Assembly (NCBI RefSeq): GCF_947623445.1
Contig: NC_135246.1
Coordinates: 14,987,856 to 15,051,855 of the forward strand
Reading direction: 5' to 3'
From: Clavelina lepadiformis
Taxonomy: Eukaryota > Chordata > Ascidiacea > Aplousobranchia > Clavelinidae
Length of the DNA: 64,000 nt
A program made the translations under genes and the position numbers. The number at the start of each line of letters is the position of its first letter. Positions within the stretch are counted from its first letter, which is position 1. The notes under the pieces are model-generated. The model ran no database searches and was not told the DNA's origin. It saw only the letters and a program-made list of their open reading frames with translations. Positions 334 through 63,324 of the stretch are shown piece after piece.

Positions 334-2776
334 CTGTATGAGTGATGTACAGTATACTGTAGATATAGGCAAACCTAAGTACATACCACCAACTAATGAA
401 TCCTATAAGGAAAGACATTTTGGAAATTATAGACAAGATCGTAGCAAAACTCACGTACCAACATAGGAATAAACAATTCCAACGTTAAAATTTGAAATGC
501 GTTTTCATTAGGCTAGCGGCTAGCCTACTCCAATACAATGTTTCAAATTTCAAAATACTGAAATATCCGTCAGCAAAAATTAATCGTCGCAATTCGTTTT
601 AAAGCTTTAAACGCGTTTTACCTCAAACATCACGTGCAGAATAGTATGCTCATACTTCATGCCTGAGCACAGATTACTTATACGCTACTACAGCAAGCTT
701 GTCATGCTGGTTGTTTTGTATCCGGTTGCCGCCGCTTAGGTAAGCAGTTTTCACAACCGCAGCACGAGTGCAAAGTGATTTAAACATGTCAAAAAAACCG
801 TTATCGTGCTTTGGCGCCATTCAATACCACAACTTGCTTAAGTTAGCAATAGGCTAGATACCATTAGAATAGTCAACGTCAGGAACTAAGGCAGGTTTTA
901 GATGAATACAGTATTTACAGACAAAAAAGTGACAATGTTCGGTGGTTAAAGCGTATAGCGTCACATCAACTGTTTGCAGCCTGCTATATATACAAGCAAA
1001 AAGTATTAAAGACCTAGTTCATCTGAGGCGAGTAGGCTAAAGCTACCCTTCGCCCTTAGAATGGTCGATCACCCTTTTTAAGAATGAAAAAAGAATTAGC
1101 GTGTTACAGAACGCAACGTGGTTAGCTGAAAGTGAACAACAGGCAGTTGTATATCTTGTAACTGCGTGAAACTGAACGTTGTGATTACTTTTTCCGCAAT
1201 CGCCTTAACTTATGAGTAGTTGCGTACAATTGTGTGATTAGTCACGATTACTGTACTTGTGTTCTTTATTCAAAACGATCGAAAGTTGTTACAGTACACC
1301 ACTTAATTTCAGCCATTTACAGCTTTATATCTGAAACCTAAAATGAGTCCATTTCATCGATTAACAAGTTTGAAGTTAACTTAATGTTTATGCGTGGCAT
1401 AGTGGGTACCAACGTAATAATAAAGGAAGTTACATTTTATGCTTCCATAGTGCACAGTGCACACTAAAGAGAATAGAATAGACCTTTCACACTGCCGCCT
1501 GCCATTTTGAAAGGTTGAGTAAGGCGTTACGAATCGTAAGTACCGCAACTTCGTTGCGTCTGTGAAACATAAACAAAGACTGACGAGGTCAGTCTTCCCT
1601 TTCCGTTTTTCTCTCTCTCGCTCCACAGACACATCGGCATCGCAACTACGTGCAAACAGGAAAATGTCCTTTAGCCGAGCTGGTCTCAGAAAATGCTTTG
1701 GCCCAATCAGATTCATTCGGCTAAAGGCCAGACATGCCAAAGGTCAACGCAACTTAGTTTAGGGTGCTTGTAAACGCATAGAAAAAGTTACTTCGCCACA
1801 AAGCTGAGAGAATATATTTGTTAGTGTGTTTTGGAAGTTCTATGCTACACATCGAGTAAAAAACATTTGTCAATAGGCCGTGGAACGTATGAAACTGGCA
1901 GAAGTGTTAAAACGTTTCGCAGCTTCGCTTTGTTAAACACAGACGAGAACCAGATTCATGCACCTATTTCAACATGGTGGGCTGTAAAGGTCTACATTGC
2001 TAGTGGTTGCTGTCTGATTCGTTGTGAGGTTAGAGTTTATATAAATAGACTTTGCTTAACAGCGCAAATCAAAGTCGGGAATTTTTTATAGAAATTAAGC
2101 CGCAACCTCTTCAACATGAAACGAAGGGTAAACACTTGCTTTTATCACACGGTGTCTGACTTGTTGTTAACTTAGAGCGTGACTACAAGAAAAACTACTT
2201 TGGCCAAGCTGCTTGTTCACATCTGCGGTGTCGTGTTTGTATTCACGTCATTTACGACCTACGTTGCTGCAACATTTTGCAGACGAATATCGGCAATCTG
2301 TTGCCGAAGTCAATTGCTGTATGTCTGGTAACGCATTTTCGAAATATGAAATTATTTTGTGTAAGATTGCGCAAAAAGTGTCACAATTTGTTAACTAAGA
2401 ATCGGTCACCGTTTTACAACTCTTTTACGCTTCCATATTAACCCAATTTACTGTATAATGCATTTGATAATTACCTAAGCCTATCTTCTAAATCTAACAT
2501 CCCTAGTTCCATTTAACATTTTAACCCTGATTTACCAAAATTAACGTTTTTATAACTTTCTTTACACTTGACTTTCTTTTTCTTGCAACCGGGTGTGTTT
2601 TGAGTTACCGACTTATGGTGAAATGGCCACTTCTCATAGTCAATAGTGTATATCGTAGGCTATTGTACTAAAAGTAGTCTGAATGATTTCTAACATGGCA
2701 AATAACTCCTCTTTCGAAATGTGAAATCGCTTTAACGTTAACTGTAAGTCAAGAAAAAGAAAATAAATAGTTAGTA
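334..2776. other. Intergenic, no gene recognised
   Basis: Short open frames on both strands (for example 1381-1740 minus and 1562-1762 plus) overlap each other, lack convincing splice structure and resemble no family I know. The stretch probably includes the promoter of the leftward gene ending at 333, but I see no clear TATA box. Confidence 0.5.
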
Positions 2777-2797
2777 CAGTACTTCCTCGATTATCCG
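2777..2797 (+). repeat. Left terminal inverted repeat of rDNA-carrying element
   Basis: 21 bp, exact inverse of 4045-4065, preceded by the TA target duplication at 2775-2776. Confidence 0.88.
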
Positions 2798-2870
2798 GTC
2801 AAGTTGGGTCAATATTTTCAAAAATCTGACCGGATAAGCAAAAAAAACGGATAATTGAATTTGTATTTTT

Positions 2871-3063
2871 ACCGAGCACGCACGCAAATCGCCGCCATGG
2901 GCCTGACACCCGCTATGGGACGAAGCCTCGATCAGAAGGACGCGGGCGATCCGCGACGCGCGCAAGACGAATTCTATACGCCACAATTCCGGAGCGCTCC
3001 AAAAGCGACCGGATTCGGCGATGGGCTCATCCCGCTTCACTCGCCGTTACTGAGGGAATCCTC

Positions 3064-3110
<47 letters not shown>

Positions 3111-3128
3111 AGTCTCGTCCGACCTCAG
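2871..3128 (-). rRNA. 28S rRNA 5' end fragment inside transposon
   Basis: On the minus strand the sequence reads the conserved start of large-subunit rRNA, including CCCGCTGAATTTAAGCATAT, GCGGAGGAAAAGAAACTAAC and CCCTCAGTAACGGCGAGTGA, then continues into the D1 region and GTCCTTCTGATCGAGGC. It breaks off near 2871, where AT-rich transposon sequence begins. It cannot give a functional 28S rRNA. One usually invariant base differs (CTAACGAGG for CTAACCAGG), which suggests decay after capture, although a lineage difference cannot be ruled out. Confidence 0.9.
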
Positions 3129-3351
3129 GCCGAAATGTAAGAGACGTCACACGTGCCGAGGATCGACGACGTTCGCGATCGATCGCGGCGACTTGGCGAA
3201 ACGAGGACACCTCTTCGAGGTCGATCCGCCGCCGCCGCGCTCTCCGATCGCGTGCCGGACCCTTGCTGACTTCGACGGGACGGCGGAGACACAGGTCTCC
3301 GTCCGACTCCGCATTCGCCCGGGCGACGGGCGCGCCGGGATTGCTTTTCAG

Positions 3352-3508
3352 ACGACCCTGAGGCGGGCGTGGTCCCGGGATTAACCCGAGGCCGTAATTC
3401 GCGTTCAGAACGTCGATGCTCAATGTGTCCTGTAATTCACACTAATTCACGCAGCTAGCTGCGTCCTTCATCGACTCGCGAGCCGAGTGATCCACCGCCA
3501 AGAGCCAT
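3352..3508 (-). rRNA. 5.8S rRNA copy inside transposon
   Basis: The minus strand carries a whole 5.8S-like segment: GCGGTGGATCACTCGGCTC, GACGCAGCTAGCTGCG and CAGGACACATTGAGCATCG. ITS2 (about 3129-3351) and ITS1 (about 3509-3737) flank it in the normal order. Some widely conserved positions differ (GAAGGACGCAGC for GAAGAACGCAGC; GAATTACAGG for GAATTGCAGG), so this is more likely a captured, drifting copy than an expressed gene. The boundaries are approximate. Confidence 0.85.
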
Positions 3509-3737
3509 CATCGTTTATCGTTTCAGCTTCTACGAAGCAGTCACAGGTTTGAATGTGAGCGCCGAGCGGACGATCTGACGACCGTCACTTGAAACCGCGG
3601 GGGTACTCGACGCCCGTGAAAGACTTGTGCCTTGTCGAGCGCCTCAACGGGCGCGTCTTGACCTCGACAAGCGCGAGAGGCGGCCGGTTTCCCGGCGACG
3701 CCGCCGCAGCTCGAGCGGGAGCCTCCGTTCGTTTCGA

Positions 3738-3795
<58 letters not shown>

Positions 3796-3906
3796 AATGA
3801 TCAAGTTAGATCGTCTTTTCGGACACCGGTTCGGCCGTTGCCAGCCGCTCCGGGTCCAATCGGAGGACCTCACTAAACCATTCAATCGGTAGTAGCTACG
3901 GCGGCG
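3738..3906 (-). rRNA. 18S rRNA 3' end fragment inside transposon
   Basis: On the minus strand this is the last roughly 170 nt of small-subunit rRNA, including GTCGTAACAAGGTTTCCGTA and GTGAACCTGCGGAAGGATCA and ending at ATTA (3738). Similarity stops near 3906, just after CTACTACCGATTGAATGG read back to the decoding-region side, and the sequence then becomes transposon-like. It is a truncated copy in the same orientation as the adjoining ITS and 5.8S. Confidence 0.9.
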
Positions 3907-4044
3907 GTTCAACGTCAATTGAAAAATAAAAACCAGAGTAATCTCACGCATATGATAGTTGCAAGTGCAATCATGCGAAGTAAAACGACCTCCCAAAGTC
4001 ATTGATCACTCGGCCGGATAATCGAATGCCGGTTAAACGAGGTA

Positions 4045-4065
4045 CGGATAATCGAGGAAGTACTG
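4045..4065 (-). repeat. Right terminal inverted repeat of rDNA-carrying element
   Basis: 21 bp, exact inverse of 2777-2797, followed by the TA target duplication at 4066-4067. Confidence 0.88.
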
Positions 4066-4841
4066 TATAGCTTACTAGAGCCTAGCTTCTATTTTTCAAA
4101 CGTGCTGTTTTCAGCAAGCGTTGCCATTTCTCACACCGGGTCTGCATGGAAATGTTACAAAAGATTGCAATGGAACAATAGCCAGTGTGAATCCTAGCTT
4201 TCGGGTTTTCAACTAAAGAACCCTATCTAGAACGTATTGATAATTGCAATAACTTGATCTACAAAATAGTATAGCAACAGTTTTAACGCAGTTTTGGAAA
4301 GTTCAGCAAAAGCTGCGTGAAATGTGTTGCAGCAAGGTAGAACGGAAAAGTATCACAAGACGTTGCAATCATGACCTATTCTCACGTACAATATTTAACT
4401 TAGCTAGGTTAACATACTTTAATGACTAACATAATCACGGTCACAATACGTTTAGAGTTAAATGAACTGATTTCGCAATTTGCCGTATATACAACATTCT
4501 CGCATTATTAAGCAAATCAGAGTTAAGCCGAGCTTACTTTTGGCTACTTAGGTTACTTATGTTTTGTGTTTGTCGGCGCTGTAAACACGCAATTGGCAGT
4601 ATTACTGTTTGGAACTTTCTAACTAGATTTATTTGTTTACAGTATTTCAACACCATCTACACATATATCTAAAAAGTCCGTGGCAAGTAACATATCACTT
4701 TATTATTAGCGTAGCTGCAGGCGTAGCAAAACGAGCCGTAATGTGACGTCACTTCCTAGTATTTTATCAGCAATTTGCAGACTAGCAAATGAACAGCGAG
4801 AGCTGAAAGTTGGCAATGGTAAAGATTAATAAATATACAGT
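4066..4841. other. Intergenic, no gene recognised
   Basis: AT-rich sequence between two transposable elements. I see no open frame, RNA gene or clear repeat in it. Confidence 0.5.
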
Positions 4842-5352
4842 CATAGGTGGGCAGAACCGCGGTACTATAGTACCGAATTACTGTACCGCGGTAATTCTTT
4901 AGTACCGATACCGGTACCGTGGGTACTTTTGAAAAAAAGTACCGAATCTCTATACCGAATTACTTTTTGCAAGAAACTTTAGTCGGTCCCGTTACTCGGT
5001 ACTTTTCACGTGATTATTTCAAAATTTTAACAACTATGTTTTCAAAAATACATGTTAGTTAACCCTTAATACTAATTTTAACATCTATTGATCTTTTTTG
5101 ATGTAGAAATGTCAAGTAAAATTACAAGCAAACAACGTCACATATGTTTTAACCTGGAATAACCATTACCGAGGGTATAAAAGCGGCAAACATTGCATTT
5201 CCAGCAGCATCTTTTACACAAAAAGTACCGGTACCGACAATGTACCGAACTACTTTTTTAAAATAGTACCGTATACCGGAACCGTCGGTTCATTTTTTGT
5301 CAAGTACCGGTACCGTTACCGGTACTTTCAAAGTACTGACTGCCCACCTCTG
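4842..5352. mobile_element. hAT-type MITE, 511 bp
   Basis: The left end reads CATAGGTGGGCAG and the right end, inverted, CAGAGGTGGGCAG, the hAT-like terminal pattern. Eight-base flanks tatacagt (4834-4841) and tatacaat (5353-5360) match at 7 of 8 positions, as expected for an aged hAT target duplication. The interior is built from many GGTACC/GTACCG-type repeats in both orientations and has no coding capacity. Confidence 0.75.
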
Positions 5353-20229: not shown

Positions 20230-21631
20230 TGTTTTTGTTTATTAAACGCTCTCAAACAGTGTTAAGGCACGCTTAATAATAATAATAAAAAAAAATTCGA
20301 GAAAAAATGATCAAAAGGTAGAGCACAGAGTACATTCCAAATCGTTCTGAAATAAGAAACACAGCAGAGTTGTGCGGCCATTACGTGATAGTTCTATTGA
20401 GTTCACTGGGGTTCGGTTTGTACGTTGTTTTGCAGCAATTAAAAAAGCATGGCTTGTATCTATTTTCAACGAGTTGGAACGAGAAGTCGACGCAGTTGCA
20501 CCTTATTAGGGCTCCATCGCATCCCTCACAGTACACCGGGTGCTGAATCCGCGGTGCCTCCTTTCCCGGTTTATTGCTTCTCCGAACTTGATAGAAGTTC
20601 CTGCATGTGCATCTCACGTCTGCGGTTTCGTTTAAAGGCAATTCGGTAAAGTCATATGGCATATGGTCTATCTTACTTTTTTGATTTTCCTGATTTTCTG
20701 TTGAGTCCCCGCTGATGTCTTTTCTTTTGTTTCCTCTGTTTTTCTGTTGTTCAGGGGACTGCTCATTCGAGTCGAGCTTCAGGCTCCCCTCCAAAAGCTC
20801 TCCCGCTCGGCTCTTCTCCGTATCCTTGGTGCTCTTTTCTCGTAATAGTTTGATTGTTCTTTCGCTGGGAGGTGGTGCTGGTTCCTCCTCTTCTGATTCC
20901 ACATTCCGAGTGGTCGTCATCGGTACATCCTGTTTGTCCGCATCGCTGTTGCCCATCCGCATTCTCTTTGGGCAGTCTCTAAATTTGTGCCCTTGTTCTG
21001 TGCAAAAGGAGCATGTTTGAATTTGACCATTATAACTTACTGCGCATCTGATTTTTCCCAGGTACAGGTACGATGGGAGTTGGTTTCGTTCCATTGTTTC
21101 TTTGTTTACTCTATAAATTCTTCTTCCGTCTTTGATGCCGTATTTATCAGAGCCCAATTGTACTGGGCCATGGATCTCATAGTCTGCGAGGATTTCGTCG
21201 AGGTGTTTCTGTGGATAGTGGATAGGTACCCACCGGATCGTGAGGTCTGTTCGTTCATCTCCGTGAGCGATGGCAGATTTTACTTCCGGCCTTTTGCGTA
21301 GAAGGTCTGCAAGTTTTATTGCACTGTTCCTTTTATCTACGGTAATATTTACCGTATTCCCTGGTTTCTGTATGATGCCTTCGATGTATTGGATTAGTAT
21401 CTTGACTTCTTTCAGCAGCCTGTAGATTTCTTCTCGTTTGCTGTCATTGACTAATTGGATCGTTACCTCTCTGTGGTTGCAGTAGTCAGCAGCCACGTCG
21501 TACTTCCACTGTCTTTTCACTCTCTCTGCGTAGGTGAGAGTCTCAGCCATTCTTCAACTTTTCTGTCTAGCTTCTTTATTTTCTGGCGGTCTGCTTGGTT
21601 CGTGCCATTTTTCTTCAATACCATTACATAC
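20230..21631 (-). mobile_element. ORF1-only non-LTR retrotransposon inserted in ABAT copy 2 exon 10
   Basis: The insert is flanked by a perfect 17-bp target duplication CGTGTCGTTAATACTTG (20213-20229 and 21632-21648). In minus-strand orientation it has a short leader of about 81 nt, one ORF of 389 codons, about 150 nt of trailer and an A-rich end (AATAAACAAAAACA) abutting the duplication. There are no long terminal repeats and no reverse transcriptase frame. Size, tail and duplication fit target-primed reverse transcription of a LINE-type RNA whose second ORF is missing. Confidence 0.85.
20381..21550 (-). CDS. LINE ORF1-like nucleic-acid-binding protein
   Basis: An intact frame of 389 aa starts at MAETLTYAERVKRQWKYD. 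Mid-protein it has one CCHC zinc knuckle, CSFCTEQGHKFRDC (C-x2-C-x4-H-x4-C), typical of ORF1/Gag proteins that coat element RNA. A Glu/Lys/Ser/Pro-rich, probably disordered stretch follows, then a second Cys-rich region (CTCRNF, YCEGCDGALIRCNC, CFFNCC) that I cannot assign. The N-terminal third, before the knuckle, may be an RNA-recognition-like fold, but this is inferred from position only. The absence of stops suggests recent insertion or selection at the source locus. The clade (Jockey, I, L2 or other) cannot be set without a reverse transcriptase. Confidence 0.75.
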   Translation of the reverse strand: MAETLTYAERVKRQWKYDVAADYCNHREVTIQLVNDSKREEIYRLLKEVKILIQYIEGIIQKPGNTVNITVDKRNSAIKLADLLRKRPEVKSAIAHGDERTDLTIRWVPIHYPQKHLDEILADYEIHGPVQLGSDKYGIKDGRRIYRVNKETMERNQLPSYLYLGKIRCAVSYNGQIQTCSFCTEQGHKFRDCPKRMRMGNSDADKQDVPMTTTRNVESEEEEPAPPPSERTIKLLREKSTKDTEKSRAGELLEGSLKLDSNEQSPEQQKNRGNKRKDISGDSTENQENQKSKIDHMPYDFTELPLNETADVRCTCRNFYQVRRSNKPGKEAPRIQHPVYCEGCDGALIRCNCVDFSFQLVENRYKPCFFNCCKTTYKPNPSELNRTIT

Positions 21632-48690: not shown

Positions 48691-51600
48691 ATGAATATCA
48701 TGAATCCAAAGTTTTCGATTTGTACCCGCCTTATTTCCACTTTTGTCCTGCTGCTGTTATATGTCCAGCTGGCCATTTCGTTTCACTTGAAGCTCAAAAA
48801 CGATATAAGCGAAGATGCAAACAATGATGTTCATGCAAGAGCCAAAAGAGCGGCCGATATTGCTTTTGGCAAGGTAAGTTTGACTGTGTAGATTACATTG
48901 TTCGATTTTTGGTAAAAGTTATCCTATCGCTTTCCGTAGGTTAACTAATCTATCTTCTTGCTGTGGTACTGGGTCAGCAACGTGTCATTTAATAAGACGT
49001 TGGACTTGCCACTGAATGTATTTTATTGTGAAACACAGCAGGTAAACCATTGACTGATATCAAGAAATGATATAAAGTCTGCTTGCTGTGTCAGGTCGAG
49101 TTAAAGCGTGCGGCTATGATTCCAAAACTTCTCAAGATTAATGTTCTTCAATAATGAACAATTAATAGACCTACATCGTTCCCTAGTGTGACGTCAGTTT
49201 TTTTTTGGTTAAGTTTGCCATGATTCCCGTGGGTGCTGAAGTGGAGCGATCTGTTATAACCGGTACCAATACATTGTTGACATGACTAGTCCATTATAAG
49301 TTACCAGTGTTACTATCTTTATCGGAAATAATTTTGTGTAAAGAAACACAATTTGTGGCTATTTCTGTACACCAAGGCTGTACTATACTAGCAGCAGGTT
49401 GTAATCAAACGTACGGTTGCCAATGACGTAAGATTTTGCCTTGTATGTATCGCTAGATTAGCTTATCCGTACAAGCGAACTGATAAAAGGACATGTTGAA
49501 ACTTTGTCTTTCGACCAGAACGACTTGACAGATATTACAGAACATTTTCGGATATGTTATTATGATGTCGCATTATGGTGTAGCGTCGTAACATTGTTCT
49601 TTCATAATTATTACGATAGGTAATCATGACAAATTTTCGCTATTTTTAGATTATAAAACAAATTTAACAGAAATCGAAAAAAGCTTGCTGTGACCTGGAT
49701 TCGAACCAGGGTTGCCACGGCCACAACGTGGAGTACTAACCACTATACGATCACAGCATGGTATGTAGCAGAGGATGGTTTCGATCCATCGACCTCTGGG
49801 TTATGGGCCCAGCACGCTTCCGCTGCGCCACTCTGCTGAAGCTTGGCAGCGGAGCATAAAACGTCTGTATTCCTCGAACAAGGGAATTCGTATTTCGTTT
49901 CGACTTCATAAAACTTTGTCGCATCGTTTATCGACATAATCTTAAAAATGTAGCGCAAACTTAAATGTGTAATTTGCCTTCATAAAAAATGCTTCGTTAA
50001 CGAAAAGAGAACATGCTTTTTACAAAATGTTTGGCGTAAAAAATAAGCTGGGGATGGTAAAGCCGAATAAAATGTACAAAGACTTTACTGTACGATTTAA
50101 ATCTAACCGGTTTAATAGTTTTCAGGGCTTCTGGGAGTAAGATAAAGCCTTTGATAGGTACAGGATTCACGCCTCGAAAATCTCATGGGTATACTTGTTC
50201 ACACTGTTTTATATAAGGTAGTTAAAACGCGTGTTGCCAGAGCCCGACAAGTTTTGGAGACACATTGAATTTAATGGCTACCAAGTGACTTGAGCTTTCA
50301 AAATTGCAAAAAATGATCAAATTTTCACCATAACTAATAGCACTTCTGATTTCACCCAACGTTCATATCATAGATTCTGTTTATAGCGCATTGTAATGGA
50401 TGTTTTGCCGTTGAATGAAGTCTTTATCATCACAATCCTTGTCTAAATTGATGATGATATATACCAGTCTTACCGGCCGGTGAGAATTAGATGTTTTGTT
50501 TTAACTTTGATGAAAGGTAGTCCATCGTTAGTGCTTCGTTACTGGCTGTCGTGGGTATTGATTTTTGAAATAGATGATTAATACGTCAGTCTATAGACAA
50601 CGTAGGCTTGAAGCCGATGAACAACTGTGTATGCTGTACCTTAATTAACGGGTGACATTATGTAGTTTGTGTATGTTCTTAACCTTGGAAAACGTCCCTA
50701 AAGGTTGTTTCATAGAAACTGGCCTGAACTTTTAATTGAAAGTATAAATAACATTGCAGCATAATCCAATGCAGTAAATGTTACCTGAGTTGTATGAAGG
50801 CGATTACTTCTCTATCGAGTCGGTTATGGCTCATTGTAATATGTACGTTGACTTTGTTTTGACAAAGGTTATGCGCCGTACCATCCAGCTTTTCAAAACA
50901 GCGATATTTTGCAACAACACCGTTGTTTTCAATTTGAAATAAGTCAAAGTGGCTTGAAATTTAGTTAAACATAAAGTCAACCTTTCGGCCTGGCGTAATT
51001 AAAACGAATTAGGTTAAGATAATTTACATGACTCGTCCCGTGGTTGTCATTTAATCGTCGTAATCAATTACTTACCTCCATTTTTACTTCTAAACGGCAC
51101 CCAAATCGCCTTACGTTATCGGGTTTTGACAATTTCGTTCATTTAAAGTAGTACGTTTGCGGTTTTTGCTTATCTAGGTAAGGCAATTTTAAAAATCTAT
51201 GTCTACTTAGCTCATGTAGGTAAAATGTAAGTGATACGGTGATTAGCCGTCAAATTGTTGCGCTTGACCAAACGCGTATCCTGCGTCATTATGCAAACTA
51301 GTTAACAACGGTGTGAAAATGAGATTAAGGTGTTTTGTGTTTGGCGGATTTTGCGACGGTTGTCTGTAGAAACTCTTCAAATCTTGTTTATATTCCGGCC
51401 GTGTAATTCTTAAGGGATTTTTTTAAATTAAAAATTATTTTCCTTTACCAGTTATGGTCATGTGCTCTGGCAGAAAATTAGGCAATTTTTCAACTTATGG
51501 GTCAATGATACAAATAGTTTTTGCTGTGGGCGTTAGATTTTGCGATAAATTTTTCGTCACTCTGTTTAAAGTCCGTCTGAACTATAAGACAATCAAAATC

Positions 51601-57600: not shown

Positions 57601-60600
57601 CACCCGGCTGACTTTTGTCATGAAAACCGGAAGATTATACGTTGAACGCTTCCGCATAGATCATACTGTAAGTGTTGCTGCTGACGTACCACGGTAAACA
57701 GGTGTACTGACCTCACGTTTAAATACCTAATCAGCATTTCCGTCCATTGTAAAAGTATTTACAAGCTTTTTTGGTATAAATTAACACTATGGGGTTTTAC
57801 TGTAACCCCTTTTAGAGCAATACTTCGTTGGAAAATACTTTTACGCATATGAAATGATATACAATCGACCACATATTTTTAGCGAAGTATTAGTAGAACA
57901 AAAAGGTTAATTTTCTTATTTTAGCTCTAATCGTTGTTGTTATAGAACTAGAGAACTCCTATGATCTGTTCTCAAACATGATATCTAGCACATATTCGCA
58001 CCACATTAGTTTTCAAACACCAAACACAACTTGTAAAAATATGGCCGTCCTGCAACAAAATGTAGTCATGTGCTCAATGTTGGTTTGAATGGGTAGTTGT
58101 TTTTATAAAACTTCTATTTTGGAGTAAATTGCTACTTTTTGGACTACGTGGGTTGTATTCAAGGAAACCAAACCTATTCGAACGTGGCCACGCCACATAT
58201 CGGCCGTTTATCAGTCCCTATTAAATTGCTGGGTTCGTCTATTTTCGATTATACGGTTAATTTGCGGTTAAATTCCTATTTGTTAAAATTACCAGTTAGC
58301 CAAAGGGAGCTGTCATGTCGAAATAGGCTATTTTGACATTGGCTGTTGCAACTGACTGATAGCAAGGGATTTTCGACCTCCGATTGGTCAATTTTTGCGA
58401 TCGTTCGCAATCGATGCTATATTTTGTAATCATTAATTACATCACGTTGCAAACATAGAAACACGCACGTAACAACGTCAAATAATGTCATTGGTGTGAT
58501 AATCCTGTACGACATTCTAATGAAAAACAACAAATAAGCTTTTATTCGCATGACGTCACTCCCTTGATGAAATACAATTTGCAACAAGGCACATTCATCA
58601 AAATGGCTTGATTATTCACATTGTGTGAAATCCTGGCGGAATTGTTTATGGAAATACTGTGCAAGTTTGTTGTGAGCATTACGACCTAATTTGAACCAAT
58701 TTGCGAGCGATCCCGGACATACAAATTTGGTAAACTTTGTCATTCGGTATTAGGAAACAATCCTGGAATAAACGACACGAACATGTGATCAGTTCATTCT
58801 TCCGCCGTTCTTGCTGACATTTCAAGTTGCGCCAAAATAGCGAAAGACTATGGGAGAACTTGTAAAACGATCAAATTAACGAGCTAATTACAGGTTTTAA
58901 GCGTCTAGGCAACGTCGAGGATATTTTTACCTTGACAAACTGACAATACGTCCTGAACGAATGTTCGGTACAAACATAAATATAGCTTCAGCGCAGACAA
59001 CTTTTACATTTTGATGACATTGCTGCTATTTACGCCACTAATTTGTGCTCATTGTCACCGGACCACATTGTTATTGCTACAGTCGAAAATAGTAATACCT
59101 GCAAAGTCGACATTTTAGAATGCTTTCGCTGAAGATTTGGCACAAAAGCGGCACGTAGCAATACCACCAAATATCGCTGCATAATCTTTATTAATTATTT
59201 AAAAAGTTACGTAGGAACTGCACGGATCAATCGTCTTATAAATGAAAGACAAACAAAGGAATAGCCTCATGCTTGTCTGTTTTCAACAAAAAAAACTGAA
59301 ATTCTTTTTTTGTGATCAATAAGAAGTAGTTTCTCTTTCTTCTTAATAGCATTTAAGAGTCGGTAACAATCTTTCATTCACTTTAACTCGTGCTTTTATG
59401 CGAGAGCTTTAAAAAAAATTTTTGTTTTTCAACCGTCTGCATAGTATTCAGTACATCATGATTTTTTTGTTGGCAAGGGTTCGACAGAAAATGTATTTCT
59501 TTTTCAGTATCAACAATGTCACCCCGAAATTAGGCAAGAAATTAACCCATGAGGCAATTGACCAAGCATTCGCGGTCTGGAGCAAACATATTCCCATCGA
59601 ATTCGATAAAGTGTCCCCATCCGACAAACCCGACATTGTGACTTTCTTTGCGGACGGTTACCATGACGACAACACCGCCTTCGACGGCCCGGGTGGATAC
59701 CTAGCTCACGCCTACTACCCTGGCCCCGGGATAGGCGGGGACACCCATTTTGACTCTTCTGAACCCTGGACTCTACATAAGCCCCCGTATGAAGGTAGGA
59801 TATTTTCTTTCTCTAGCTTTTAAATCATAAAAATGTGGTTACGGACCTTTTTAAACGTTCCAAATAAGTGCGTTTTGGTATGGTAGTTTGAATAGCACAT
59901 AATTTAGGTGACTTTGAGTTAAGATGAAGAACTTTAAATTTTACCGCATTATTTCTATCGACGATTTATCGTTTCAAAATGCTTTTGCATTTTAAAAGGG
60001 GCTTCCACCTCTTCAAGATAACGAGCAAAACCTGTCTGCTTTTGCTTGTAAAACTATTGTGTCTCGTCTGTTTTCAGCGGGTTTCATCAATAATTCAGGA
60101 GTATACGTCTTAAGTTTTTGCACGTCAAGAATTAATGGAAAAGCATTCTTTTTATCGCATGCAGTATATTACGATAAAGTTACTTTGCATATACGCTCGC
60201 AATACGTGATATTTTGAGCGAAGTTGGTGTCGGCGGAGTATTTATACCTGGTGACATTTGGTAGCACTCTGTCTTAAAGTTTCGTGTTTTGCAACGTATG
60301 TCACTTGTCAATTTGAAGAAAAGGTTATTCTGTTAATTGCGCCTATTCTGAGAACGGCATAATATCGACAAACGAAAGGGATTCTATTCTAGTACCAGTG
60401 ACCTGAACTATGGTTATGGTTGTCCTGAAGAGTTACAACGAGTAGAACTTCGCATGCAAAGCGGGACTTCCTCAATGAATTGTCAGTCCGTGAAGTCATT
60501 TTTCTTGTTTACTCTTCATAACTTCCTTGTGACGTCATAAATTAGTGTGGCCGACACTAAAGTCACAAACGACGGCAACTTTCAGCTGTGCGAACTCGTT

Positions 60601-63324
60601 TCGGATTGGTCGATAGCGGCGGAAATTGCTTCGCGATTGGCTGAGATTTGCACCTGGAAATTCAGGAATGAGCAGCTCGTTTCTATGGTGACGCGACGTT
60701 AGCCGCGGAAACCAAAAGCTGGGGAGTTTTACGAATTTTTTACGACTCAAATCCTTTATGCGAGCGGATTACTGATAAAAGGCTGAAAAACGCCGGAAAA
60801 TTCAATCATTGTGACTTCATACTGAACACATCCCGTCATAATCGACATGAGTGACGTTTAGTCAGTTTTAAAGCGCCAGGAAGTTTATACCAAATAAGGA
60901 TTTCGCTTCAGTATTTGGCGCTGTGCAGTTAAATAAGAAAAACGCAACGAATTTACTTAAAACTGTGCAGTGTAGTGCCAGTTGACTTCATGTCCAGATC
61001 AAACAGGAAACGATTGCGTTTGCCTCTCTGCTTGGCACCAATCTTTGACTCCTGCTTTTTTGCTTTCTTCTAGGAAACGATCTTTTTCTTGTTGCTGTTC
61101 ACGAACTGGGTCACGCTCTCGGTTTGGGGCATTCCCCGGATCAAACCGCTATCATGGCACCAATCTACCAGTATCACAACACCGAGAATTTTGTTTTACC
61201 TCAAGACGACATCAACGGCATTCAAAACATTTACGGTAATTAACATAATCAATAATATTTACTAAAATATATTAATTCTACAACTGATTGCAGTTTGCTT
61301 TATTACAAATACCCGTATCAAGTCATTTAACGCTTACGTTTACATGATGTCACCAGGTGTGAGATATTCGCGACCGGAAAAACCAATCAAACCGACGTCA
61401 ACTACCCCACCGACCTCCACCTTATCAACCACATCAACTAAGTTCTACCCATTCAGAACCAAGTGGCCTTCGTAAGCATTTTCAAATTTTAAACTATTCT
61501 TGTGAAATTCTTCAAAAGTTGATGTGATCAGCCAATTATTCAAAATAATTTAACTTCTTACGCATAACAAAGAATAAGTTAATCTTAATAACTTATCTCG
61601 TTTAGGAGAACAAAAGTTCCCCCTACTTCCAGACCTACACCACGTACCACGACCAAACCTCCACTGCCCGAGGTGTGCAAACTGAAAAAGTTTGATGCGG
61701 TCAGTTATTTGCGACGGGAATTGTACATTTTCAGGTAGGCTTAGCACTGCGCTTTCAGAATATTTACAAAACGCTAAGCAAAAGCGCCTAACTTGCAATT
61801 GCTGCAAAATTTAAGCATGGTTGTATAGAATAATTTACATAGAACTTTGTTGCCCTCATGCTAATTTCCAAACTTTGTTAATTCACTTCAGTGGAAAATA
61901 TATGTGGAGACGGCGACTGCACGACGACAAAGTTCAGGGTCCGTACAAGATAACTTCCTTTTGGCCTCAGCTTAAAGATGGAGTCACTGCGGTGTATGAA
62001 AATCCAGCCACTAATAGAATTGTCTTCTTTAAAGGTATGTACACAAACGTCATTGTAAGATGTAAGTAAATGTAATGATTATATGCTGCACGTTTAGTTA
62101 CTACCAATGAATACTTCCAACCCTGTTGGGTATTCATTTTCTGCAGATACCTGATTATTTTGGCCATAATTTGTCACGTTGTAATATGCTGATTTTGTTA
62201 TATTTCATTTTTAGTAATTCAAACTACGTATATGCTGTTTAGATTACCAATATTGGGAATACGACGGCACCACTTTACTTCCTGGTTCACCACGGCACGT
62301 CCGCTTTCTGGGGTTGCAAAATGACCACGTTGGCGCCGCCGTGTGGTGGGAACGAAATGGCAAAACCTACTTTTTCCAGAGTGAGTGTTCTGACGCTATT
62401 GTTTGACTGCGTTGATATTCCAAGTTATGATATTGTATATAGGTACTGCAGTGATAGGCAAAACCCATAACGGATATCTGAAAAAATATTATAGTTTAAA
62501 ATGAAAATAGACACATGACAATATATAAATCATATATTGAATGACGGTGATAGTTTTCTGTATTCCAGAAAGAGTTAATAATCGCTATAGATTTTGTAAT
62601 GCTTGTGTCTGTTAAACTGTGAAACAAATTTTAAAGCAAATTCCTTGATTAGATGAGAATTATTGGAGATTCTCCGGAGACAAAGTGGAATCGGATTATC
62701 CGAAACGTATCGATGTTTGGAAGGGAGTTCCCGCCAATGTTGATGCTGCTTTCTCCGGTGTCAGTCGAGACGGTAAGTGATATACAGGTCAAACAAACAA
62801 CTGTGTTACGTGTCTCGTGATAAAAAGTTAACCCAGTTGACCAAGTTTATCATATGTTTTCCGTACAACTTAATTTACAAGATTTTATTTTAACCACAGG
62901 TCGCAATCACACTTATTTCGTGAAAGGGAACAGATACTGGACCTTCCACAATTATGACATCAGAGTTGTATCCGGACCTCAATCTTTCAGGAGGGACTGG
63001 CTGGGATGCGGCTCCGTGGGAGACGATTTCGATAAAGACGACGCCTCTGACGAGTACAACTCAACCTCCGTCGGAGCGATCGTCGGAGTGTGCGCAGTGG
63101 CGGTTATCCTGATAATAGCCGCCGTTATGTACATTGTCCGGCGTCGACAGAGAGCAGAGAAACAAAATCCAAGAACCGTAGCAGTTGCCTCTCCCACGGT
63201 ACCCTACGCCCAGGGTTACTCGAAAGGGTTGCCACCCCACACGACTGGGGGAAAAACTATGTGCGTGACGGCAGCCCAGCAGAAACTACGGCGGTTTCAC
63301 TTCTCCCTGCAACCCAGGGTTTGA
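48691..63324 (+). CDS. Membrane-type matrix metalloproteinase
   Basis: Zinc endopeptidase anchored at the cell surface for pericellular matrix cleavage. Exons: 48691-48873, 56529-56717, 56945-57027, 59508-59794, 61074-61235, 61357-61471, 61606-61734, 61892-62034, 62243-62380, 62653-62772, 62900-63324; all in phase, 657 aa. Domains: signal peptide (about 1-30); propeptide with peptidoglycan-binding-like helix bundle and cysteine switch SRCANSD (Cys119); furin site RRKKR (132-136) followed by YVTVGQKW; catalytic domain with [16 protein letters not shown] and [11 protein letters not shown] (257-267) plus Met-turn IMAP; Thr/Pro-rich hinge (about 302-360); four-bladed hemopexin domain closed by Cys364 and Cys553; acidic stalk; transmembrane helix (about 574-596) with RRR stop-transfer; about 61-residue cytoplasmic tail. 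The furin site plus TM helix assign it to the type I MT-MMPs (MMP14/15/16/24 group), but one-to-one orthology cannot be set. The switch differs from the usual PRCGxPD. AATAAA follows at 63819. Confidence 0.93.
49677..49682 (-). terminator. RNA polymerase III terminator after tRNA-His
   Basis: Six consecutive T on the minus strand, three bases beyond the tRNA-His discriminator base. Confidence 0.7.
49686..49757 (-). tRNA. tRNA-His (GTG)
   Basis: A 72-nt cloverleaf on the minus strand. Acceptor stem GCTGTGA pairs with TCACAGC and the discriminator is A. The D-arm region is TCGTATAGTGGTTAGTAC, the anticodon stem-loop CCACG-TTGTGGC-CGTGG has anticodon GTG, and the T-arm is CTGGTTCGAATCCAG. A-box and B-box are intact, so it looks functional. 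A run of six T follows a few bases downstream, the RNA polymerase III terminator. Confidence 0.95.
49766..49837 (-). tRNA. Initiator tRNA-Met (CAT)
   Basis: A 72-nt cloverleaf on the minus strand starting AGCAGAGTGGCGCAGCGGAA, with anticodon stem-loop GGGCCCATAACCC and the eukaryotic initiator T-loop GATGGATCGAAACCATC instead of TTC. The A1:T72 pair (AGCAGAG/CTCTGCT) is also initiator-specific. It lies 8 bases upstream of tRNA-His in transcription order, with no T-run between them. Confidence 0.95.
52601..52998 (-). CDS. Possible exon or relic of an unidentified protein in MT-MMP intron 1
   Basis: The minus strand is open for about 130 codons without an ATG and ends at TGA near 52601. The translation looks protein-like: hydrophilic [20 protein letters not shown], then [37 protein letters not shown] and [14 protein letters not shown], an alternation of beta-strand-like segments. 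A putative 21-nt in-frame intron (gtattg...attag at about 52830-52852) could be removed or retained without breaking frame. No start codon or partner exons were found. I do not recognise the fold; it may be the last exon of a nested gene, a retrocopy, or chance. Confidence 0.25.
57028..59507. other. Intron 3 of the MT-MMP gene
   Basis: A 2.5-kb intron. The frame at 57185-57478 has no splice or family support; nothing else recognised. Confidence 0.5.
59795..61073. other. Intron 4 of the MT-MMP gene
   Basis: A 1.3-kb intron between the two catalytic-domain exons. No gene or repeat recognised. Confidence 0.5.

Follow-up and report, generated by a model that had tools for sequence, protein, structure and literature searches.

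How a complete 5.8S rRNA gene, with both ITS and parts of the adjoining 18S and 28S genes, comes to lie between the inverted ends of a DNA transposon is the question raised by a 1,289-bp element in the genome of Clavelina lepadiformis. The element occupies positions 2777-4065 of the 64-kb stretch of DNA analysed here (the window), and the initial annotation regarded it as a pogo/Tigger-like transposon that carries rDNA as cargo and is able to disperse it outside the nucleolar array.

The ends of the element are perfect 21-bp TIRs flanked by TA duplications, as originally described, and the perfect inverted match grows to 23 bp once the flanking TA is included. With up to three mismatches allowed, the TIR sequence is present at two places in the window (2777-2797 and 4045-4065) and at a mean of 0.00 places in 100 dinucleotide shuffles of it; genome-wide, the exact TA+TIR sequence is found 48 times in forward and 44 times in reverse orientation, with 0 and 0 for a reversed-pattern control. 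Chance resemblance of the TIRs was rejected on these controls; a unique element with ends that do not recur would have refuted the initial annotation, and the ends do recur throughout the genome. Its parts, in window coordinates, are as follows.

2775-2776, no strand: TA target-site duplication, left copy (the inverted match includes the TA)
2777-2797, plus strand: left 21-bp TIR, with CAGT at its start (inverted match, genome-wide recurrence)
2777-2872, plus strand: left 96 bp of the pogo/Tigger-like element (96.9-100% identity to the non-rDNA relatives L031-L037)
2873-3126, minus strand: captured 28S 5' end (RF02543; ITS2 boundary approximate)
3127-3352, minus strand: captured ITS2 (placed between Rfam matches and by the match to the array-like unit L042; boundary on the 28S side approximate)
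3353-3506, minus strand: captured complete 5.8S rRNA gene (RF00002, model 1-154)
3507-3745, minus strand: captured ITS1 (placed between Rfam matches and by the match to L042)
3746-3896, minus strand: captured 18S 3' end (RF01960)
3897-3914, no strand: 18 nt of altered rDNA or filler at the junction (found in every one of the 20 full-length copies)
3915-3987, plus strand: right subterminal piece, common to L035, L036 and L037 (part of a stretch matching a dispersed repeat)
3988-4065, plus strand: right 78 bp of the pogo/Tigger-like element (match to non-rDNA relatives)
4045-4065, minus strand: right 21-bp TIR (inverted match, genome-wide recurrence)
4066-4067, no strand: TA target-site duplication, right copy (inverted match)

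The interior is a single contiguous rDNA piece of about 1,024 bp, visible also in base composition: GC content rises from 0.39 in the adjoining 1-kb bins to 0.57 in bin 3001-4000. Rfam matches, all on the minus strand, bear out the order and orientation first proposed, from the 18S 3' end through ITS1, 5.8S and ITS2 to the 28S 5' end: SSU (model 1668-1823) at 3746-3908, 5.8S over its whole model (1-154) at 3353-3506, and LSU (model 24-358) at 2772-3109, the SSU and LSU matches nominally overrunning the true rDNA edges slightly and the LSU match crossing the transposon's left end. The breakpoints had been put at about 2871 and 3906, which was close but needed refinement: by comparison with relatives the transposon/28S breakpoint falls between 2872 and 2873, and on the right clear 18S sequence runs to 3896 and is followed by the filler, with transposon-type sequence resuming at 3915. 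No microhomology is evident at the right breakpoint, where the 18-nt filler lies. On the left, the readable array-like unit has no 28S start and does not contain the 28S sequence lying past the breakpoint. Because the cargo holds no IGS it has no rDNA (Pol I) promoter, so that a ribosomal function is unlikely, and the rDNA is most likely a passenger without one. The window copy contains no transposase reading frame and departs from the copies' majority sequence at three positions; its sole stop-to-stop frame of at least 120 aa (134 aa) is rDNA-derived.

Several other features were seen in the window. At 4842-5352 there is a GGTACC-rich, element-like sequence with inverted ends CATAGGTGGGCAG / CTGCCCACCTCTG that are 92% complementary, which we take to resemble a hAT-type MITE. 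Adjacent genes for tRNA-His (GTG) and tRNA-Met (CAT) lie at 49685-49837 on the minus strand. A Peptidase_M10 match at 59413-59820 (E 1.7e-26) and a Hemopexin repeat at 62824-63321 (E 1.3e-06) are probably exons of a matrix metalloproteinase-like gene, presumably the same one, and its product is possibly membrane-anchored, since a hydrophobic stretch follows the Hemopexin repeat. A 390-aa open frame at 20384-21553 on the minus strand has a CxxC...H...C zinc-knuckle-like motif as in retroelement gag/ORF1 proteins, and its Pfam search returned just a sub-threshold zinc-finger match.

The identity of the carrier emerges from relatives with the same TIRs, which the initial annotation had suggested looking for. 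Two of them, L031 (2,450 bp) and L034 (2,446 bp), contain no rDNA, agree with each other at 2,424 of 2,445 aligned bases, and share the left 1-96 and right 1212-1289 positions of the element. L034 has an open frame of 552 aa with profile matches to DDE_1 (E 1.2e-43), HTH_Tnp_Tc5 (E 3.2e-15) and CENP-B_N (E 4.4e-09); the predicted protein resembles the CENP-B DNA-binding domain (PDB 1hlv, E 2.4e-08), and its catalytic residues D187, D301 and D336, with 34 residues between the last two, form a DD34D motif. In L031 the same frame is interrupted by a frameshift. A further pair of TIRs, spaced by 2,451 bp at G000:C2:4280773-4283223, probably marks another near-full-length, transposase-bearing element. 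Tigger elements have catalytic motifs in the range DD29-36D, and a CAG start is typical of Tigger/pogo TIRs. By its TA target, TIRs of about 20 bp, and the transposase domains and DD34D motif predicted for the relative, the carrier is classed as pogo/Tigger-like, in agreement with the earlier assignment. TA is present at both ends in 13 of the 14 non-rDNA relatives shown, L037 lacking it on one side. Three relatives, L035, L036 and L037, have the right 151 bp in common with the rDNA element at 98.7-99.3% identity, and the inner part of these 151 bp lies in a stretch matching a dispersed repeat: among the best 40 of 97 candidates for that repeat, 37 match at 82-89% and the other three are L035, L036 and L037 themselves.

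Copies of the rDNA-bearing form were sought in one C. lepadiformis assembly (209 Mb in 95 contigs, with 9 chromosomes), where the best 40 of 193 candidates were scored and gave 47 matches, so that copy counts are lower bounds. At least 20 copies are full-length or at most two bases short and are 97-100% identical, and at least six are partial: L021 is interrupted by a nested insertion of 529 bp, about 173-304 is missing from L022 and from L023, L025 lacks about 731-1068, and L026 and L027 are truncated. These last two have an identical flank at the TIR end and are therefore counted as one duplicated insertion. There are thus at least 26 copies at at least 25 insertion loci on eight of the nine chromosomes, none of the matches listed being on chromosome C8, and the proposal that a transposon carrying rDNA has dispersed ITS and 5.8S copies outside the array agrees with this distribution. 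The insertion in L021 (972-1500) has inverted ends CAGTGGTTCCCAACC and resembles a nested hAT-type element; 201 bp of it are found again, at 95.5%, in sequence flanking L009. One further candidate, C2:14465705-14466993, has the same length of 1,289 bp and was rejected as an rDNA copy, as 421 bases from its start match non-rDNA relatives.

The copies occupy distinct TA sites. Of the 20 full-length copies, 18 have TA directly at each end of the match; in the remaining two a single base is inserted or deleted at the tip of a TIR, and TA lies immediately outside. TA is likewise present at both ends of L021, L022, L023 and L025, the four partial copies in which neither end is lost. The joined flanks of all 20 full-length copies were compared with the set of element and rDNA loci for empty sites; those of L020 match a stretch beside copy L012 at 293 of 301 positions with a single TA, and a weaker, related empty site was found for L009, whose joined flanks match, at 230 of 277 positions, a repeat lying within the left of the two. 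Genome-wide, exact TA+TIR sites pair into 38 elements shorter than 3 kb, 18 of which contain rDNA, leaving 16 ends unpaired. Among the 20 pairs without listed rDNA, ten were read whole, one partly, and nine are known by their ends alone; within this coverage, no other single form of the TIR family was seen as often as the rDNA form.

Many copies have the same rDNA breakpoints, as had been anticipated. Every one of the 20 full-length copies has the right junction, 15 with no difference over the stretch compared and five with one to three bases changed or added; the left junction is found in 17, the other three having small deletions there. Since these junctions are held in common, they point to a single capture followed by transposition. 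Divergence from the majority sequence averages 0.80% in the full-length copies (206/25,630 cells), 114 of 147 variants are private, and mean pairwise identity is 98.50% (range 97.17-99.69). A tree of the copies and the array unit has very short internal branches with some supported groups, such as L014 plus L020 (0.965); in it the array unit falls next to copy L007 (support 0.74) and marks no clear root. Substitution rates within the cargo are 1.36% for 28S, 0.71% for ITS2, 0.75% for 5.8S, 0.78% for ITS1 and 0.36% for 18S; a 5.8S gene that varies like the spacers fits an unconstrained passenger, of which the lower 18S value alone is no sign.

Readable rDNA is scarce in the assembly, and the comparison with the array comprised one array-like unit, L042 (on C7), and six other rDNA loci that contain 18S and part of ITS1 only; the 28S piece of L042 matched only its own place. 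L042 covers element positions 345-1128 at 98.2% over 788 columns. The suggested comparison of the internal ITS with the functional array was made in part, against this one array-like unit. L042 is partly surrounded by N and its 28S start is missing: at L042:390-420 the 28S start (LSU model to about 358), a region partly present in the transposon cargo, is seemingly absent, the LSU match at this locus being below the gathering score. A parental copy exists elsewhere for element 345-1128, and the 28S portion is without a readable parent. Within 345-1120 the majority sequence of the element differs from L042 by nine substitutions and one 3-base gap, and single copies differ from it at 11 to 25 positions per about 761-779 bases. 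At position 1055 the element has the base found in four of the six other rDNA fragments; at the other eight substituted sites the element base is present in 19 or 20 of the 20 copies, the array base appearing in one copy at one site (802). In this small test of 20 copies against L042 there is no clear sign of gene conversion with the array at the nine substituted sites, and seeding of conversion by the dispersed copies, which had been envisaged, is not seen.

Three other explanations of these observations can be weighed. Arrays of rDNA assemble poorly, and with the array-like locus partly N it could be supposed that rDNA reads were collapsed or chimerically joined into a TIR element. Such an artefact would have to recur with common junctions and different flanks at each of the insertion loci on eight chromosomes, with variants mostly private to the copies and one clean empty site (that of L020), in a genome for which 117-fold HiFi data and a QV of 67.4 are given in the accessible text of PMC10884593; the chance of this is very small. 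That rDNA entered existing elements repeatedly and independently, or through recombination with the array in many copies, could draw on the inserts, possibly nested repeats, of other family members, and is extremely unlikely on account of the shared right junction with its 18-nt filler, the left junction common to 17 copies, and the association of rDNA gain with loss of the element interior.

The remaining alternative is that the element targets rDNA in the manner of Pokey and took neighbouring rDNA by aberrant excision, Pokey being evidence, in the accessible part of its description, that rDNA-inserting transposons can carry rDNA (PMC3849761). We regard this as very unlikely: the rDNA sits between TIR-bearing ends in place of the interior, and when the two 150-bp flanks of each full-length copy were joined, the 20 resulting sequences had a GC content of 0.27-0.40 and none gave a BLAST match to the assembled rDNA-bearing loci L038-L044. 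We favor instead, with a probability of roughly 0.93, a non-autonomous pogo/Tigger-like transposon whose interior was replaced by one rDNA piece of about 1,024 bp and which then multiplied by cut-and-paste, mobilised in trans by a transposase of its 2.45-kb relatives.

The simplest order of events suggested by the sequences would start with the full-length 2.45-kb element, proceed to an L035-type form that gained a repeat piece near its right end, and end with rDNA replacing the interior. The rDNA would have come from the nucleolar array and was most likely copied into a broken element, one already having the L035-type right end, by error-prone gap repair or by template switching during replication. 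The 18-nt filler at the right junction fits a repair-type capture, and gap repair and template switching have been proposed for Pack-TIR capture in the accessible text of PMC8277862. The rDNA element would then have multiplied by cut-and-paste at distinct TA sites. Coding for no transposase, it must move in trans, and the L034-type protein of the 2.45-kb relatives is the obvious candidate to act on it because the ends are identical.

Members of this TIR family have other foreign sequence inside them besides rDNA. A 640-bp GC-rich insert is present in L074, in the element at C2:13650659 (where it was placed by coordinates) and partly in L075; of its 11 matches three are in these elements, and those beyond the family reach 96% identity. 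In L074 it contains a retrotransposon-like frame fragment without a match in Pfam, whose only PDB match, a weak one (E = 0.35), is to a protein of the R2 retrotransposon; R2 is an rDNA-inserting element. It is a tentative and rather unlikely reading that the family captured nucleolar DNA more than once, as about 1 kb of rDNA in one lineage and an R2-like insert in another; if true, it would suggest transposon gap repair near or within the nucleolus and make the family a route of rDNA export and amplification. In L033 and L047 the insert is about 350 bp long and belongs to a very common repeat, for which the best 40 of 486 candidates were scored. This insert and that of the L035-type elements may be nested insertions rather than captures, because the repeats they match are abundant and dispersed, with 486 and 97 candidates respectively.

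Comparison with known systems places the element among several of them. According to the accessible text of PMC9219625, most complete Tigger elements are about 2.8 kb (1018-4525) and code for ~492 aa, with TIRs of ~20 bp (8-33) and a TA target. The family described here is alike in its TA, TIRs of about 20 bp and a 2.45-kb relative with a single 552-aa CENP-B_N/HTH_Tnp_Tc5/DDE_1 ORF, whereas the window copy has no transposase and an rDNA interior. Animal Pack-TIRs, of which 370 were reported in 100 genomes, four of them multicopy (Tan et al. 2021, PMC8277862, accessible text), likewise hold a captured host segment inside a TIR transposon and can be multicopy with distinct TSDs. The same text describes a multicopy frog example with three copies, a Pack-Tigger1, and microhomology at the breakpoint in 67.6% of unique cases; the terms 'rdna' and 'ribosomal' are absent from its main text. 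Known multicopy cases are few, whereas here one capture is found at at least 25 insertion loci.

Pokey of Daphnia, a piggyBac element with TTAA targets that inserts in 28S, carries spacer pieces upstream of its transposase, namely IGS 'A' repeats of ~200 bp and an ITS2 'C' repeat of ~48 bp, and these rDNA-derived repeats evolve in concert with rDNA, as far as the accessible text of PMC3849761 describes it. Pokey had been cited as precedent for insertion into rDNA, and this is correct, but by carrying IGS and ITS2 pieces it is a nearer parallel than was supposed. Both are DNA transposons with rDNA-derived sequence, and both have acquired other genomic pieces; the differences are the pogo ends, the TA target, the missing transposase and a single contiguous segment of about 1 kb from the transcribed region, and no concerted evolution is seen here against the one array-like unit compared. 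No left flank of the 20 full-length copies ends in TTAA. A literature search, covering titles and the starts of abstracts and few subscription journals, found no DNA transposon with contiguous 18S-ITS-28S cargo. What is new is the pogo-type carrier, the contiguous cargo of about 1 kb and the copy number; the kind, an animal Pack-TIR, is already known.

For work on C. lepadiformis, ITS amplicons or rDNA FISH may pick up dispersed copies. Interference with ITS barcoding, as suggested by the initial annotation, is plausible from the sequence: the ITS5 primer site in the element is perfect, the ITS4 site has two mismatches and the ITS3 site three. More broadly, the element represents a route by which a complete 5.8S gene, both ITS and flanking parts of rRNA genes escape from the array and proliferate at unlinked loci, where the dispersed copies are apparently beyond the array's homogenisation. 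It is also a high-copy animal Pack-TIR for which parental and intermediate-looking forms are found in one genome, so that the order of capture can be read.
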